Virus record (IMG/VR): IMGVR_UViG_3300013131_003358
Location: 1-49,118 of that record
Origin: a virus
DNA: 49,118 nucleotides
Direction: 5' to 3' (one strand)
Position numbers and translations under genes: made by a program. A model generated the notes under the pieces. That model worked only from the letters and a program-made list of their open reading frames with translations. It was not told the DNA's origin and searched no databases. How positions within the stretch are numbered: position 1 is the first letter of the stretch; every line of letters starts with the position of its first letter. This document shows positions 1,003-43,573 of this stretch, one piece after another.

Positions 1003-1085
1003 TGGTGGGGGTAGAAGGACTCGAACCTCCGAACCCGAAGGAGATGATTTACAGTCACCAGCAATTGCCGCTATGCGATACCCCC
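1003..1085 (-). tRNA. tRNA-Tyr (GTA)
   Basis: Class II tRNA with a long variable arm. The acceptor stem GGGGGTA/TACCCCC is perfect, the T arm carries GGTTCGAGTCC, and the anticodon loop reads CTGTAAA, giving anticodon GTA. The 3' CCA is encoded (1003-1005). It is the most promoter-distal tRNA of the minus-strand array. Confidence 0.95.
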
Positions 1086-1095
1086 ATGTTTAGTT

Positions 1096-1332
1096 TTAGT
1101 CTGGACTGATAATTAAATTGTGTACCCCATTGTCCATGAGTATATCTTGAAATTGAACACGTAAGTGTTGGATCATTTCTTTTTCCTTATCTGTTATAGT
1201 TTCATTATACTTATACATTTGGCGCATATACTCTTGAAAATCATTGATAGAACGTCTTAAAACAATTCCATTAATGGCGCATTGATGTTCGAATTCATCT
1301 TCGGGTAAGTCAAAGTGTAATGTTGCTTTCAT
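1096..1332 (-). CDS. Conserved small phage protein
   Basis: 78 residues lying inside the tRNA array, between tRNA-Tyr and tRNA-Trp. The N-terminus MKATLHFDLPEDEFEHQCA matches the pattern MKA-L-F-LPED seen in a widespread family of small phage proteins of unknown function; that recognition is from memory of the family. The middle (RSINDFQEYMRQMYKY) is likely a helix. No catalytic motif, membrane segment or signal is visible. The reading frame is the only substantial one in the gap between the two tRNAs, and it reads in the same direction as the array. Confidence 0.75.
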   Translation of the reverse strand: MKATLHFDLPEDEFEHQCAINGIVLRRSINDFQEYMRQMYKYNETITDKEKEMIQHLRVQFQDILMDNGVHNLIISPD

Positions 1333-1354
1333 AATATGTTCGCTTTTGAATTAG

Positions 1355-1427
1355 CGCGCTAGGTAGGACTCGAACCTACAACATTCGGTTTTGGAGACCG
1401 ACGCTCTACCAATTGAACTACTAGCGC
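1355..1427 (-). tRNA. tRNA-Trp (CCA)
   Basis: 73 nt without encoded CCA. The acceptor stem GCGCTAG/CTAGCGC is perfect, the D arm is GTTCAATTGGTAGAGC, and the anticodon stem-loop CGGTCTCCAAAACCG shows anticodon CCA. The T arm is GTAGGTTCGAGTCCTAC. Confidence 0.95.
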
Positions 1428-1442
1428 GTATTTTATTCTTTG

Positions 1443-1532
1443 TAGTCAGGACAGGATTCGAACCTGCAATCTTTGACATTCACTACTACTTAAAGCGTGT
1501 TTATGTGCGTCTACCAATTCCGCCACCTGACC
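1443..1532 (-). tRNA. Leu-type class II tRNA with an abnormal anticodon arm
   Basis: 90 nt. The acceptor stem GGTCAGG/CCTGACT, the Leu-type D arm (GCG...CGC around GAATTGGTAGA) and the T arm (GCAGG/CCTGT) all fold. The 38 nt between the D and T arms do not give a regular five-pair anticodon stem. The best fold is CATAA/TTAAG, with one A-A mismatch, leaving loop ACACGCT without the usual U33. A TTTAAGT stretch that could present TAA cannot be closed by a stem. A normal tRNA-Leu(TAA) is present at 2203-2291, so this one may be decayed or specialised. The anticodon is left unassigned. Confidence 0.7.
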
Positions 1533-1564
1533 TATAAGTTTTTAGAATACCCCCAGAACTTATA
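1533..1564 (-). other. Perfect 8-bp inverted repeat just 5' of the Leu-type tRNA
   Basis: TATAAGTT at 1533-1540 and AACTTATA at 1557-1564 are exact reverse complements separated by 16 bases. The hairpin abuts the 5' end of the tRNA at 1532. It could be a processing signal or a remnant of another tRNA. The DNA from 1565 to 1640 shows no gene I recognise. Confidence 0.4.
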
Positions 1565-1640
1565 AACTGTGCTAACCTACGATTTAGATGGGAGCAATTA
1601 GAGGCAACCCACGTCTTCGATTCCTGATCAAGGACTAATG

Positions 1641-1713
1641 AGCTTCTGAAAGGAGTCGAACCCTCAACCTACTGAGTACAAATCAGTTGCTCTACCAATT
1701 GAGCTACAGAAGC
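1641..1713 (-). tRNA. tRNA-Thr (TGT)
   Basis: 73 nt without encoded CCA. Acceptor stem GCTTCTG/CAGAAGC, D arm GCTCAATTGGTAGAGC, and anticodon stem-loop ACTGA TTTGTAC TCAGT giving anticodon TGT. T arm GAGGGTTCGACTCCTTT is slightly imperfect. Confidence 0.93.
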
Positions 1714-1718
1714 ATTAG

Positions 1719-1791
1719 AGTTTGTGGTGGGGCTTGAACCCACATCTCCCGAGTGATTAGCCCGAGTGCTTACCAGTTAGCGGACACAAAC
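1719..1791 (-). tRNA. tRNA with apparent anticodon AAT (Ile-type), unusual
   Basis: 73 nt with regular arm lengths. The acceptor stem is GTTTGTG/CACAAAC and the T arm is GTGGG TTCAAGC CCCAC. The anticodon stem TCGGG/CTCGG has two G-T pairs and closes a loop CTAATCA. Positions 34-36 therefore read AAT, which would be an Ile anticodon rarely used in bacteria, and position 37 is C rather than a purine. The sequence CACTCGGG occurs on both sides of the loop, so a local duplication may have distorted an ancestral Met- or Ile-like arm. Confidence 0.75.
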
Positions 1792-1796
1792 CTAAG

Positions 1797-1937
1797 GATC
1801 GTTTTTAAGGGACACTACCGGATATTTCACCTAAATAGTTTTAAACGATCAAACCCTAGCGGTTTCGGGTCTTTCGGGGTTTCTGGTTAAGTGCAATGAG
1901 TGACTTCCTACTATAAACCCTTTTTCGGAAATTAGTA
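1797..1937 (-). ncRNA. Structured non-coding spacer RNA between tRNAs
   Basis: This 180-base tRNA spacer has no ORF. It holds three inverted repeats in a row: GATCGTTT (1797-1804) with AAACGATC (1843-1850), immediately followed by AAACCC (1851-1856) with GGGTTT (1877-1882), then TACTA (1909-1913) with TAGTA (1933-1937). The first two stems would stack end to end. On the minus strand 1930-1960 also resembles a D arm (GGTAGAGTG). It may be a small RNA released during tRNA processing, or the remains of a tRNA. Confidence 0.35.
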
Positions 1938-1972
1938 CACTCTACCTCTTAACTACAGCTTCACTACCGCCA

Positions 1973-2049
1973 TGGTAGGGGCGACAGGACTTGAACCTGT
2001 GACCTTGATGATATAAGCATCCTGCTCTAACCAACTGAGCTACGCCCCC
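1973..2049 (-). tRNA. tRNA-Ile (TAT)
   Basis: 77 nt with encoded CCA (1973-1975). Acceptor stem GGGGGCG/CGCCCCT with one G-T pair, D arm GCTCAGTTGGTTAGAGC, loop CTTATAT giving anticodon TAT, which reads AUA. The outermost anticodon-stem pair is G-A. AUA-reading tRNAs are commonly carried by AT-rich phages. Confidence 0.92.
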
Positions 2050-2124
2050 AATTGATTGCACCTTTTTTAATTCGTAGAGGTGCAGAACGCGAAAAAAACA
2101 ATCGATACGTCAAAGAACAACTCG

Positions 2125-2198
2125 TACGCCCGACAGGATTCGAACCTGTGGCCCACAGCTTAGAAGGCTGTTGCTCTATCCTGCTGAGCTACGGGCGC
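2125..2198 (-). tRNA. tRNA-Arg (TCT)
   Basis: 74 nt without encoded CCA. Acceptor stem GCGCCCG/CGGGCGT, anticodon arm ACAGC CTTCTAA GCTGT with anticodon TCT (reads AGA/AGG), T arm ACAGG TTCGAAT CCTGT. A typical phage tRNA. Confidence 0.96.
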
Positions 2199-2202
2199 AT
2201 TT

Positions 2203-2291
2203 TGGTAGCCGGAGCGGGAATCGAACCCGCAAGACCAATTCTGGTCAACAGATTTTAAGTCTGTCGTGTCTACCAATTTCACCATCCGGCC
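2203..2291 (-). tRNA. tRNA-Leu (TAA)
   Basis: 89-nt class II tRNA with encoded CCA (2203-2205). Acceptor stem GGCCGGA/TCCGGCT, anticodon arm ACAGA CTTAAAA TCTGT with anticodon TAA, variable arm GACCAGAATTGGTC, T arm GCGGG TTCGATT CCCGC. First tRNA in the direction of transcription. Confidence 0.96.
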
Positions 2292-4229: not shown

Positions 4230-4526
4230 TTATCCTTTCAGTAGTTCTTTACTAATTTTAATATTTCGCCATGACTCAGCACGTTTTCTATCAATATATG
4301 CACGCTCCTCATCCGTCAATGATGCATAAAATATTGAAAGTTCGTCGATATCTAGGCGTAGAAATGTTTGCCATACATCACGTTCAGCCTCATGTATTTC
4401 ATAACGATCCAACACTGCATGCAGTATTGTAGTAGCCATTGGCGGGACATGTACCGCCATTACATCCATGGCTTCATACCACTCTGTAACAATATAGCTA
4501 CTTGTTACAATATCTTTATTGTGCAT
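4230..4526 (-). CDS. Hypothetical protein
   Basis: 98 residues from MHNKDIVTSS. This start (4526) is preferred to the longer frame from 4604 because GGAG lies nine bases upstream and it overlaps the previous stop by only 11 bases. The protein is mostly helical, with an acidic C-terminal half (LTDEERAYIDRKRAESWRNIK). No motif recognised. It is followed after one base by the HNH gene. Confidence 0.65.
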   Translation of the reverse strand: MHNKDIVTSSYIVTEWYEAMDVMAVHVPPMATTILHAVLDRYEIHEAERDVWQTFLRLDIDELSIFYASLTDEERAYIDRKRAESWRNIKISKELLKG

Positions 4527-4866
4527 ATACTTCTGCTCCGTTTTCATTATCTTCAAATACCGATACATATTCACATGCGAAAAATTGCAACACTTCTTTT
4601 GCAATCATCTCACATGATTTAGCACCAAACCAATGGCATCTATATGACATATCAAAATACTTGTCACGAAAGTATTGTTCAATGTCACGTTTAAACATAA
4701 TAAACTCTACATCCCTGTCATCATGATTAACACGTTTCTTGGCTGTAATATGAAATATATGCCTATGAGGATCGGAAAGGAATCCTACCTCAGGGACAAT
4801 TTTTTTAGCATCAGGCCATGAATGTAGGCCCTCAACTTGAAGTTTTACAATTACATTTGTTATCAT
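4516..4866 (-). CDS. Conserved phage protein of unknown function
   Basis: 116 residues. Its features match a family of phage proteins I remember: an N-terminal HSWPDA, HRHIFH, HDDRDVEFIMFKRDIE in the middle, SCEMIAKEVL, and a C-terminal VSVFEDNENGAEV. The three-stranded layout and the His pairs recall the pterin-synthase (T-fold) superfamily, but I cannot confirm a catalytic role. The family occurs across many unrelated tailed phages. The gene starts three bases after a TTATATTTAA motif. Confidence 0.7.
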   Translation of the reverse strand: MITNVIVKLQVEGLHSWPDAKKIVPEVGFLSDPHRHIFHITAKKRVNHDDRDVEFIMFKRDIEQYFRDKYFDMSYRCHWFGAKSCEMIAKEVLQFFACEYVSVFEDNENGAEVYAQ

Positions 4867-4869
4867 GTC

Positions 4870-4880
4870 TTAAATATAAA
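4870..4880 (-). promoter_or_regulatory. TTTATATTTAA motif upstream of 4866
   Basis: Minus-strand TTTATATTTAA, one of a set of near-identical AT-rich motifs placed in the longer gene gaps, ending three bases before a start codon. Candidate phage promoter element; see also 6050, 31192 and 38577. Confidence 0.3.
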
Positions 4881-4883
4881 TGA

Positions 4884-5369
4884 TTAATTATTAGATTCCA
4901 AATATGTTTTTACTCTTTGCCAATAAATTTCAGTCGCTGTCTTAATGTAACCGCGGGGACCGCCATTCCAATTTCTAGAGATATGCTCATATGAATTGTC
5001 ATCATGATGGTATGATGCCCAAATCTCAAACATTTCACGTGATGCAATACAATTCCACCGATCTTGTAAATTATATCTATGCTCGATATTCTGGCGTTGC
5101 AATATGTCATTAACTTCTTGAACCATGATAGGGCAAATCTGCAGACAACCAACAGCGTCGGTACTAGCATTATATGCTAATTCATTACCCGAACTTTCAA
5201 CATGAATTAATGCGGCAATTAATTCATCATATCTATGCAGAAACTTCCACTTAAACGATCGTTCAACTTTAAATACTACATGATTAGCCGAAGGAAATGT
5301 AATTAAATACACTTGCGACATAAATACAATCGCGATAACAATTAATAAGCTTATAACTTTTTTCATCAT
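4884..5369 (-). CDS. Lytic transglycosylase-like peptidoglycan hydrolase with N-terminal anchor
   Basis: 161 residues. Residues 4-26 form a signal anchor or signal peptide (VISLLIVIAIVFMSQVYLI). The rest is a small SLT/goose-lysozyme-type fold: Glu58 in ALIHVESSG is the expected catalytic acid, followed by the family pattern DAVGCLQICP (usual form G-x-x-Q-I) and a C-terminal NWNGGPRGYIK with a Tyr in the usual place. It should cleave glycan strands in the periplasm during entry or lysis. ATGATG at the start overlaps the stop of the ClpS-like gene. Confidence 0.82.
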   Translation of the reverse strand: MMKKVISLLIVIAIVFMSQVYLITFPSANHVVFKVERSFKWKFLHRYDELIAALIHVESSGNELAYNASTDAVGCLQICPIMVQEVNDILQRQNIEHRYNLQDRWNCIASREMFEIWASYHHDDNSYEHISRNWNGGPRGYIKTATEIYWQRVKTYLESNN

Positions 5370-5632
5370 CGTTTTAATTCCACTGTTAAGCCAGCTTTCT
5401 TAAGTTGTGCGTATAACACAAAAATATCTGGGCCGGCACCTGTTGCTATTTGGCATATACCGGCTGTATGAACAATCATTGCAATCGACTCTGCCCTAAG
5501 CGTATTACATGCCGGCATTAATGCTGTCAATACCGTGATTACATGCTCAAAAGAATTTAACTCATCATCTATTAGATAAAGTTTTAGTTTGCGTTTTTTC
5601 CTCTTTGAGGATGTAGTTGATTTCAACATCAT
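5366..5632 (-). CDS. clpS: ClpS-like adaptor of the Clp protease
   Basis: 88 residues. After a basic N-terminal extension (KSTTSSKRKKRK), residues 17-88 match the ClpS fold closely: LYLIDDELNSFEHVI corresponds to the NDD-x-(N/T)-F-x-VI motif of bacterial ClpS, AESIAMIVHTAG to the AE-A---VH--G helix, and LKKAGLTVEL to the last strand. ClpS delivers N-degron substrates to ClpAP or ClpCP. Asp22-Asp23 and His55 match residues of the N-degron pocket, but the usual Asn before the Asp pair is Ile21. The form is nearest in memory to Bacteroidota ClpS. A phage copy could redirect or block host proteolysis. No Clp ATPase is seen here. Confidence 0.8.
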   Translation of the reverse strand: MMLKSTTSSKRKKRKLKLYLIDDELNSFEHVITVLTALMPACNTLRAESIAMIVHTAGICQIATGAGPDIFVLYAQLKKAGLTVELKR

Positions 5633-5653: not shown

Positions 5654-5860
5654 TTACTTATGCTCAATTTTTACAATGTATCTGCCATATTTAGCCGTAT
5701 ACATTCGCGTTTTTACCGTACGATCAGCAATGCCATATGCATATGAAGCTTCAATCGGTTGATTGCGGTCATCTAATACATATACAAGATATTGTTCTTG
5801 TATATCAGAGTCAGATAGTTCATAAGTATCAACTGGCTTTGATTCAATTTTCCAGTTCAT
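5654..5860 (-). CDS. Small hypothetical protein
   Basis: 68 residues with alternating hydrophobic and charged positions, suggesting a small beta-rich fold (QYLVYVLDDRNQPIEASYA; RMYTAKYGRYIVKIEHK). No motif recognised. It overlaps the upstream gene by 17 bases and sits between it and the ClpS-like gene in the same direction. Confidence 0.6.
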   Translation of the reverse strand: MNWKIESKPVDTYELSDSDIQEQYLVYVLDDRNQPIEASYAYGIADRTVKTRMYTAKYGRYIVKIEHK

Positions 5861-6049: not shown

Positions 6050-6060
6050 TTAAATATAAG
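6050..6060 (-). promoter_or_regulatory. CTTATATTTAA motif upstream of 6041
   Basis: Minus-strand CTTATATTTAA directly followed by the GGAG of the next gene. It is identical over 11 bases to copies at 31192 and 38577. Candidate promoter element at the head of an operon. Confidence 0.35.
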
Positions 6061-31191: not shown

Positions 31192-31202
31192 TTAAATATA
31201 AG
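31192..31202 (-). promoter_or_regulatory. CTTATATTTAA motif upstream of 31188
   Basis: Minus-strand CTTATATTTAA, part of a 13-base match (TACTTATATTTAA) with the copy at 38577. It ends three bases before the nuclease start codon. Candidate promoter or leader element. Confidence 0.35.
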
Positions 31203-32154: not shown

Positions 32155-33792
<1,638 letters not shown>

Positions 33793-38576: not shown

Positions 38577-38587
38577 TTAAATATAAG
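38577..38587 (-). promoter_or_regulatory. CTTATATTTAA motif upstream of 38573
   Basis: Minus-strand CTTATATTTAA within TACTTATATTTAA, identical to the copy at 31192, ending three bases before ATG. Candidate promoter element for the modification and clamp genes. Confidence 0.35.
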
Positions 38588-41854: not shown

Positions 41855-42512
41855 AACCTCTCACAAATTCGTAAAACTCGTTTCTAGTTGCGGCATCATC
41901 TTTAAATGCACCCGTCAATTTACTAGTCTTCATACTAGCCCCGCCATGCTTTACACCACGACATTGTACGCAATTATGTGTCGCTTCAATCATAACAGCA
42001 ACACCTTTATTATCATCAATAATAGTGTTTATGGCATGGTGTATTGCAACAGTTAACTGTTCTTGGATAGCACCTCTTCGACCAAAGTGCTCAACTAATC
42101 GATTTAGCTTGCTAAGCCCGACAACTTTACTATCTGTTCCCGGAATATATGCAACATGTACTCTACCCATAATTGTCTGGTGATGATGAGAGCACATACT
42201 AGTTAATGGAATGCCTCCCTCAAATACCATACCATCATACCCATCGCTAGGAAAAGCTGTGATGTCAGGCGCGCCTTCATATCGGCCGGCCCATAGATCA
42301 TTAACATAGGCTTTGGCTACGCGATATGGCGTCTTATCGGAGTTCGGATCATTTCGCCAATCACATTTAAGTGCATCTAGAAATTTACCAAATGCATCGG
42401 CAGCTGCATTAATCATATCAGCCTTTTCGCTTTCTGTCAGAGGACGATTCGTCGCAATGCCATTTGCAAATCCGGCAGTAACAAGCTCTAAGTTATGAGC
42501 ATCACTCATCAT
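41835..42512 (-). CDS. folE: GTP cyclohydrolase I
   Basis: 225 residues. KTPYRVAKAYVNDLW at 60-74, SMCSHHHQTIMGRVHVAYIP at 105-124 with zinc ligands Cys107 and His110, VGLSKLNRLVEHFGRR, and HNCVQCRG at 179-186 holding the second Cys of the zinc site. Converts GTP to 7,8-dihydroneopterin triphosphate, the first step of folate and of 7-deazaguanine synthesis. In a phage with queD, queE and dpdA the second role is the more likely. Overlaps groES by 11 bases and hpt by 20. Confidence 0.96.
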   Translation of the reverse strand: MMSDAHNLELVTAGFANGIATNRPLTESEKADMINAAADAFGKFLDALKCDWRNDPNSDKTPYRVAKAYVNDLWAGRYEGAPDITAFPSDGYDGMVFEGGIPLTSMCSHHHQTIMGRVHVAYIPGTDSKVVGLSKLNRLVEHFGRRGAIQEQLTVAIHHAINTIIDDNKGVAVMIEATHNCVQCRGVKHGGASMKTSKLTGAFKDDAATRNEFYEFVRGYGNSIS

Positions 42513-42801
42513 ATGCGACCATTAGGATTTCCGATGCTCTTACCAAATAAAATTTCTCGTTGTCGAGTTCAACGCGATTAGAATGTCCTGATAACAACTC
42601 ACTACGAACAATCACCGTATTGCCCGGCTTAATATCCATTGTAATTCTGTCACCCGTCTGTGTAAAAATACCAGGACCTGCATCTACTACATCTGCATGT
42701 ACCAATGAACTTTGTTGCGGGGTCATAATAATACCACCCGCGGACTTTGTTTCTTCTCGCTTCTTGAGCAAGAGATAATCACCTGTTGGAATCATTTTCA
42801 T
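42502..42801 (-). CDS. groES: GroES-like co-chaperonin
   Basis: 99 residues from MKMIPTGDYLLL; start 42801 is chosen because GAGGAG lies six to seven bases before it, while the longer frame from 42882 lies inside queE. KKREETKSAGGIIMTPQQSS matches the GroES mobile loop that binds GroEL (ETKSAGGIVL), and ADVVDAGPGIFTQTGDR, KPGNTVIVRSE and VRASEILMVAYD complete the fold. Forms the lid for a GroEL ring, presumably the phage's own at 32155. Placed between queE and folE, not beside groEL. Confidence 0.9.
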   Translation of the reverse strand: MKMIPTGDYLLLKKREETKSAGGIIMTPQQSSLVHADVVDAGPGIFTQTGDRITMDIKPGNTVIVRSELLSGHSNRVELDNEKFYLVRASEILMVAYDE

Positions 42802-42802
42802 G

Positions 42803-43573
42803 TTATACTCCTCTTTTTGTATCGTATGCAATAATATGTTCTCTACCGGTAAAATTATATCCGTGTATAGCACACATTTCAAATACTTGTGGATAAATAT
42901 TAATTAGTTCTTGACGATTATCGCCCGCGGGCATAATCCATGTTTTATTTTTTGGGATATCCATCTTAACTCGAAAAGCCTCAATTTCTTGCAATGTCTC
43001 TTCTGTGCCATCCCATACAGGCTTGTAATGATAATCCGTATGATACTCGATCATCTTTTGAATTGCTTCATAATTAAGTCTATGCCTGTTATGCGTATCA
43101 ATGAATTTTTCGTCCACCACTTTACCAGCTGGCGTAGTGATACCGACACGAGGGACAGAATTATTAAACTTAGGGCTAAGGGATACGAGGCCAATCGGAT
43201 AATCAGTGGAAACGAACTGCGACCCCTCTGTTTCGATCGTGATGGTAATGTTCCGTTCATGTGCAAAATGCGTTAATTCATTAACAAGTGCTGGATGCAT
43301 TGTGGGCGATCCACCTGTTAACATCATTTCTGTGACATGTGGATACTTATCATATATTGCAATAATATCGTTAAACGTAAATACGCCTTTCTCCGGATGG
43401 ATACTTGTATACCATGAATCGCACCAACCGCCTTCGCCGAACCAGCATCTATGCGTACAGCCGGTAGTTCGTACTGCAATCGTTGGCATACCGGCGCGAC
43501 TACCTTCACTTTGAACACAAAGATATAGTTCTACTATAGGCAATGTTTTATTGTAATCTTCTACTCTACTCAT
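42803..43573 (-). CDS. queE: 7-carboxy-7-deazaguanine synthase, radical SAM
   Basis: 256 residues. PIVELYLCVQSEGSRAGMPT is the typical QueE opening (F-S-QGEG). The 4Fe-4S cluster Cys residues are Cys39, Cys43 and Cys51, spaced Cx3Cx7C rather than the common Cx3Cx2C, followed by DSWYTS. MMLTGGSPTMHPAL holds the GGxP motif for SAM and IETEGSQ the substrate Glu. Converts 6-carboxy-tetrahydropterin to 7-carboxy-7-deazaguanine. Ends one base before groES starts. Confidence 0.93.
   Translation of the reverse strand: MSRVEDYNKTLPIVELYLCVQSEGSRAGMPTIAVRTTGCTHRCWFGEGGWCDSWYTSIHPEKGVFTFNDIIAIYDKYPHVTEMMLTGGSPTMHPALVNELTHFAHERNITITIETEGSQFVSTDYPIGLVSLSPKFNNSVPRVGITTPAGKVVDEKFIDTHNRHRLNYEAIQKMIEYHTDYHYKPVWDGTEETLQEIEAFRVKMDIPKNKTWIMPAGDNRQELINIYPQVFEMCAIHGYNFTGREHIIAYDTKRGV

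Follow-up and report, generated by a model that had tools for sequence, protein, structure and literature searches.

Does a T4-like phage encode its own ClpS, and if so, what could it do with it? ClpS is a small bacterial protein that picks which proteins the Clp protease of the host degrades. The window, by which we mean the whole stretch of 49,118 nucleotides that was analysed, is a fragment of 49 kb from the IMG/VR virus record IMGVR_UViG_3300013131_003358, and it is T4-like, with a PolB, a clamp loader and a DnaB-like helicase that match phage families. An earlier note, made from the letters alone, had identified a ClpS-like adaptor in it, and profile, fold and relatives all bear this identification out. 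The ORF spans 5366-5632 on the minus strand, with an ATG at 5632, a stop at 5366 and 88 codons for amino acids, and its start cannot be moved upstream, since the reading frame is closed by a TAA four codons ahead of the ATG (TAA CAT GTA CAT ATG). The features of the locus are as follows:

4516..4866, minus strand: phrog_17812, neighbour of clpS, adjoining or one gene off in 6/6 near-clade contigs
4884..5369, minus strand: SLT-like transglycosylase with an N-terminal hydrophobic segment (PF01464, 22.2 bits against a cut-off of 21.3, a weak match)
5366..5632, minus strand: ClpS-family adaptor, 88 aa, core about 16-87, N-terminal extension about 1-15 (Pfam, Foldseek)
5468..5470, minus strand: codon of His55, aligned with E. 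coli His66 of the N-degron alpha-amino site
5561..5569, minus strand: codons of D22-D23-E24, aligned with E. coli N34-D35-D36 (alpha-amino site and invariant Asp; roles from PMC12493166)
5588..5632, minus strand: polybasic N-terminal extension, residues 1-15, MMLKSTTSSKRKKRK (sequence, net charge, low pLDDT)
5654..5860, minus strand: small ORF of 68 aa upstream of clpS, with a same-place homologue in G036, G015 and G014 and a weaker one in G005

The 88-aa ORF is a genuine, divergent member of the ClpS family. It matches Pfam PF02617 with E=1.4e-8 and 34.8 bits (cut-off 23), the Pfam search gave no credible family besides ClpS, and a comparison with PHROGs gave no match. PF02617 is also the sole Pfam family matched by the near clade (6/6 members), and in the wider set all 34 of 34 members match NCBIfam ClpS models. 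As the best NCBIfam score of the window protein is 36.7 bits and thus remains below the equivalog cut-off of 117, it has to be regarded as a divergent member and not as an assured equivalog. To the earlier note's question of whether the predicted fold departs from that of ClpS, the Foldseek comparison gives a clear answer: the AlphaFold2 model has the ClpS fold and overlays ClpS crystal structures with an rmsd of about 1 Å, and the top 38 matches in the PDB are ClpS structures or ClpS complexes. Among the best are Arabidopsis ClpS1 (AtClpS1) with a peptide (rmsd 1.0 Å, TM 0.87) and Mycolicibacterium smegmatis ClpS with bound PheAla (rmsd 0.9 Å, TM 0.92 on the target), and in the predicted viral structures searched, the best named matches are ClpS proteins of other phages. 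The C-terminal domain of bL12 has the same fold as ClpS, and such domains do occur among the weaker Foldseek matches (E from 0.04, TM 0.55-0.63), so that one could think of a non-functional or misannotated fold relative whose match is really to the bL12 family. However, the E-values of the ClpS structures are better by orders of magnitude, with an rmsd of about 1 Å, no ribosomal family appears in the Pfam result for the window protein, and dN/dS is well under 1 (see below). This reading is therefore extremely improbable, and the Pfam results for window and near clade together with Foldseek refute it in practice.

Are the residues that a ClpS needs still present? In the alignment, the E. coli residues V33, N34, D35, D36, T38 and M40 correspond to I21, D22, D23, E24, N26 and F28 of the window protein, and V43, M62, V65, H66 and L99 to V31, A51, V54, H55 and L82. 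In CcrClpS, the alpha-amino site is formed by Asn47, Asp49 and His79, and further pocket residues have been listed (PMC12493166). The alpha-amino triad Asn34/Asp36/His66 (E. coli numbering) thus appears in the window as Asp22/Glu24/His55, with the His kept and the two others replaced conservatively; in the pocket as a whole, D23, H55, V31, V54 and L82 are kept, and D22 and E24 are acidic. The earlier note had seen an Asp-Asp pair and a His as kept, of which the His stands, as His55 is His66, but the pair is not the canonical one (D22-D23 against N34-D35). Its statement that the usual Asn before the pair is Ile was one residue out of register, since Asn34 corresponds to Asp22 and Ile21 to Val33, and a pocket altered by an Asn-to-Ile exchange, with the change in substrate choice that had been derived from it, is ruled out by the alignment to E. 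coli ClpS. The actual change is Asn to Asp. The same Asp is present in two further near-clade members and in a ClpS from Flavobacteriales (L239), and M. smegmatis ClpS, with its motif WDDPVN, has it as well and has been crystallised with an N-degron dipeptide. Judged by these sequences, Asp at the Asn34 position looks unremarkable, as it occurs in cellular ClpS. The gatekeeper Met40 is replaced by Phe28, and Phe is present in 30/30 of the cellular Bacteroidota ClpS compared, but there the search pattern demanded it; both F28 and A51 agree with the cellular Bacteroidota ClpS compared. The patterns of the collection scans contained the NSF motif, so that conservation at positions 34 to 40 is partly built in, but the alignment of a set gathered by family profile, free of motif bias, gives the same residue picture. 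L117, a near-clade member, has lost the pocket His. In this protein and in the viral ClpS L127, Asp replaces it, as reported for Leptospira ClpS1 (PMC12493166).

In case of the contacts to the unfoldase, the picture is mixed. The Asp equivalent to Asp35, D23 in the window, is invariant in the sequences compared, and this position has been modelled as binding Lys85 of ClpC1 in M. tuberculosis (PMC6274998). The E. coli contacts to the ClpA N-domain are Glu79, Glu82 and Lys84 (PMC12493166), and all that remains of them here is an acidic residue, Asp69, near Glu82; Glu79 is not kept and Lys84 has no counterpart. LinClpS1, which also lacks Lys84, is nevertheless reported to bind its own ClpA with a Kd of 0.44 µM (PMC12493166). 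A loss of all Clp-binding residues, the other outcome that the earlier note had named as speaking against it, is thus not what the alignments give, as key residues are largely kept.

How widespread is this gene, and is it maintained? When IMG/VR was scanned directly at the protein level with the window ClpS as query, no match came back because the sequence diverges too fast, and relatives were gathered via PolB similarity and then searched for ClpS. It was found in 7/47 PolB-related viral records (five close, two distant) and in 3/3 phage-collection records examined. In the five close records (G005, G006, G014, G015 and G036; PolB at least 70% identical), clpS lies at the same locus as in the window, by phrog_17812. 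None of the near records that hold phrog_17812 lacks clpS, and as the clade records without clpS also lack phrog_17812, their contigs probably miss that region. Mean identity is 40% for ClpS and 74% for PolB, 62-68% for two conserved neighbours and 39-42% for the other small genes of the region. For the closest pair, L118/L121, dN is 0.083 and dS 0.555, and the resulting dN/dS of 0.15 indicates that clpS is under purifying selection; other pairs are near saturation. Pattern scans recovered ClpS relatives in 31 and 116 viral contigs (the sets may overlap), with contigs of up to 508 kb, and a genome scan gave 32 loci, all of them in Bacteroidota, for which the pattern required a motif that possibly favours this group. 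INPHARED holds 22 phage records with an E. coli-type ClpS, many annotated as such, and weak matches to the window ClpS occur in 8 records of BF-type phages.

The earlier note had also placed the gene beside a transglycosylase, which is correct: the SLT domain scores above its cut-off, and the transglycosylase ATG overlaps the clpS stop as ATGA (5366-5369). Homologues of the transglycosylase occur in G005 and G015, and it adjoins clpS in the window and in G015 only. A fixed pairing of the two genes can be set aside, as 3/6 near-clade contigs have no homologue in the compared stretch and in G005 it is found elsewhere; an IMG/VR protein scan with the transglycosylase as query gave no match. The motif TTATATTTAA occurs four times on the minus strand (4870-4879, 6050-6059, 31192-31201 and 38577-38586), each time at most about 20 bases upstream of a coding-strand ATG. 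The expected number is 1.2, and four copies were reached in 3/100 shuffles. The motif looks like a late-promoter-type motif, and clpS has no exact copy of it. Elsewhere in the window, eight tRNA genes are clustered at 1003-2291 (minus strand), including a tRNA-Ile with anticodon AAT, and 32155-33783 and 42502-42882 appear from their translations to encode a phage GroEL and GroES-like pair.

Which unfoldase could such a phage ClpS serve? A gene with a Clp N-domain (Clp_N) is absent from 30/31 other ClpS-bearing viral records, and the one exception is phage BF; as the records are fragments, such an absence falls short of proof. An unfoldase of the virus itself is thus an improbable partner, and if the protein acts as a ClpS, its likeliest partner is the Clp unfoldase of the host. 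Genes with a CLP_protease fold are present in 11/31 ClpS-bearing records, and some of these are probably prohead proteases. The records W01, W02, G048, G049, G052, G060 and G061, most of them huge, combine ClpS with strong ClpP homologues and have no Clp N-domain gene. A Leu/Phe-tRNA transferase was found in 0/21 ClpS-bearing viral records searched. As to the identity of the host, the window ClpS is nearest to Bacteroidota ClpS, which hints at a Bacteroidota host, but the motif required in the genome scan may favour this group, and the tree leaves the origin of the window branch uncertain. The window PolB is nearest to that of a Microcystis phage (43.5%), and ClpS is missing from the Microcystis phage whose PolB is the closest named one. 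No photosystem gene was found as a host clue. The Bacteroidota promoter motif gave five matches where 2.2 were expected, all of them on the strand opposite the genes, and was set aside as a clue, and Shine-Dalgarno sequences (18/52 genes) are uninformative on the host. Judging from the ORF list, many sugar-related genes follow one another between 9867 and 28359 (glycosyltransferase-, nucleotide-sugar epimerase/dehydrogenase- and methyltransferase-like); in Microcystis phage Mel-JY01, a putative glycosyltransferase block also lies near PolB.

Phage ClpS is already known and annotated in many phages, and the window copy extends this set by a single divergent clade. With the cellular ClpS of Bacteroidota (Flavobacteriales, Bacteroidales and others) it shares the NSF motif after the pocket Asp, the Phe gatekeeper, Ala at the Met62 position, a short C-terminal half and the G..GL spacing, whereas the window clade differs by its polybasic extension, by a loop between helices 1 and 2 that is one residue longer, by Ser, Glu or Asn in place of the Asp at the Asp36 position, and by forming a separate branch of uncertain origin. 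The ClpS of Serratia phage BF, Agrobacterium phage Atu_ph07 (gp708, annotated as ClpS; PMC6102473), Pseudomonas phage PA5oct and relatives, Cronobacter phage GAP32 and the uncultured huge phages LR745206 and LR756502 resemble it in being a ClpS core in a large phage, and a 2021 review proposed that phage ClpS hijacks host ClpAP by bringing target proteins to it (PMC7824862). In the cases compared, identity to the window protein does not exceed about 38% and the genomes are >280 kb, whereas the window carrier belongs to a T4-like lineage, in which the longest relative contig with ClpS has 182 kb. M. smegmatis ClpS (9ayn, 9ayo, 9b1p) shares the Asp at the Asn34 position, the Asn at the Thr38 position, His66 and the fold, but is a cellular protein with Pro at the Asp36 position and a Met gatekeeper. 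Leptospira ClpS1 likewise has a divergent pocket and an aromatic gatekeeper (Tyr36), and binds ClpA although Lys84 is replaced by Val, but its pocket His is Asp (PMC12493166). In its predicted role, the window protein is comparable to Gp53 of phage SPO1, an adaptor-like modulator that has been studied experimentally and that binds B. subtilis ClpC and modulates ClpCP (PMC6873191); Gp53 has 25 kDa and is likened by description only. The literature searched, with incomplete coverage, contained no experiment on any phage ClpS.

What distinguishes the window clade is its N-terminal extension, and it is here that the alternatives to a normal adaptor function arise. The basic nature noticed in the earlier note is real, as seen from sequence and net charge: in the near clade, the net charge of the 12 residues before strand 1 is +5 to +7, compared to about 0 (-3 to +3) in most other viral and cellular ClpS, with few exceptions of up to +7, which makes the polybasic extension an apparent hallmark of the clade. 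The trait may have arisen once and then counts as one observation, not seven. The extension has about 15 residues in the window, compared to 25 in E. coli, and no proline junction is present in the near clade; in the window model, its pLDDT is low. The E. coli extension mimics a degron: it passes into the channel of ClpA, delivery depends on it, and keeping it out of the channel inhibits delivery (PMC9663308). The main rival to delivery is thus a decoy or brake that docks on host Clp and may hold N-degrons, but whose short basic extension fails in delivery, so that Clp proteolysis is lowered and phage proteins are protected. The extensions of only 8-9 residues in L116 and L120, for which no upstream alternative starts exist, would fit such a role, as would the inhibition of ssrA-type substrate degradation by ClpS (PMC9663308, PMC12493166). 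However, a pure plug would not need the largely conserved N-degron pocket, much of the E. coli extension can be changed without loss of delivery (PMC9663308), and the length of the extension varies from 8 to 22 residues within the clade, and we therefore consider a brake rather unlikely.

Alternatively, the ClpS scaffold may have been repurposed: its polybasic extension would bind, for example, nucleic acid, a phage protein or the ribosome, and docking to Clp would be weakened or gone. The clade-specific charge, the loss of the E. coli-type Glu79 and Lys84 contacts, the faster divergence of ClpS than of PolB in the same contigs and the lost His of L117 are compatible with this, but the near clade keeps the invariant Asp and 6/7 pocket His (with the bias of the search patterns at residues 34-40), equally fast divergence is seen in other small accessory genes at these loci, and the basic tract may be a single inherited trait; such a change of function is thus quite unlikely. 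A dedicated host-takeover effector, in which the truncated polybasic extension brakes Clp or tethers it to a new target while the pocket is reused, appears more doubtful still.

The reading that we favour, and consider fairly probable, is that of a functional ClpS-type adaptor of a T4-like myovirus that delivers N-degron proteins to host Clp, even though the missing Lys84 and Glu79 contacts, the short extension without proline junction and the lost His of L117 argue against it. We infer that the protein is expressed in infection, binds host Clp and N-degrons and benefits the phage. The ClpS core would dock on the N-terminal domain of the host ClpA or ClpC unfoldase, and the conserved pocket would hold the N-terminus of proteins that start with a bulky hydrophobic residue. 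During infection, the phage copy would raise the adaptor dosage or alter adaptor choice, and host ClpAP or ClpCP would thereby be steered to N-degron proteins, which may be cleaved fragments or proteins of the host, at the expense of others, for example substrates with an ssrA tag. A hijack of host Clp by phage ClpS is a reasonable idea, because almost no ClpS-bearing virus examined has a Clp unfoldase N-domain of its own. If functional, the protein would give the virus a small switch to control a protease of its host, and it would demonstrate phage use of the bacterial N-degron pathway, and as ClpS is common in viral contigs, this question is testable in many systems.
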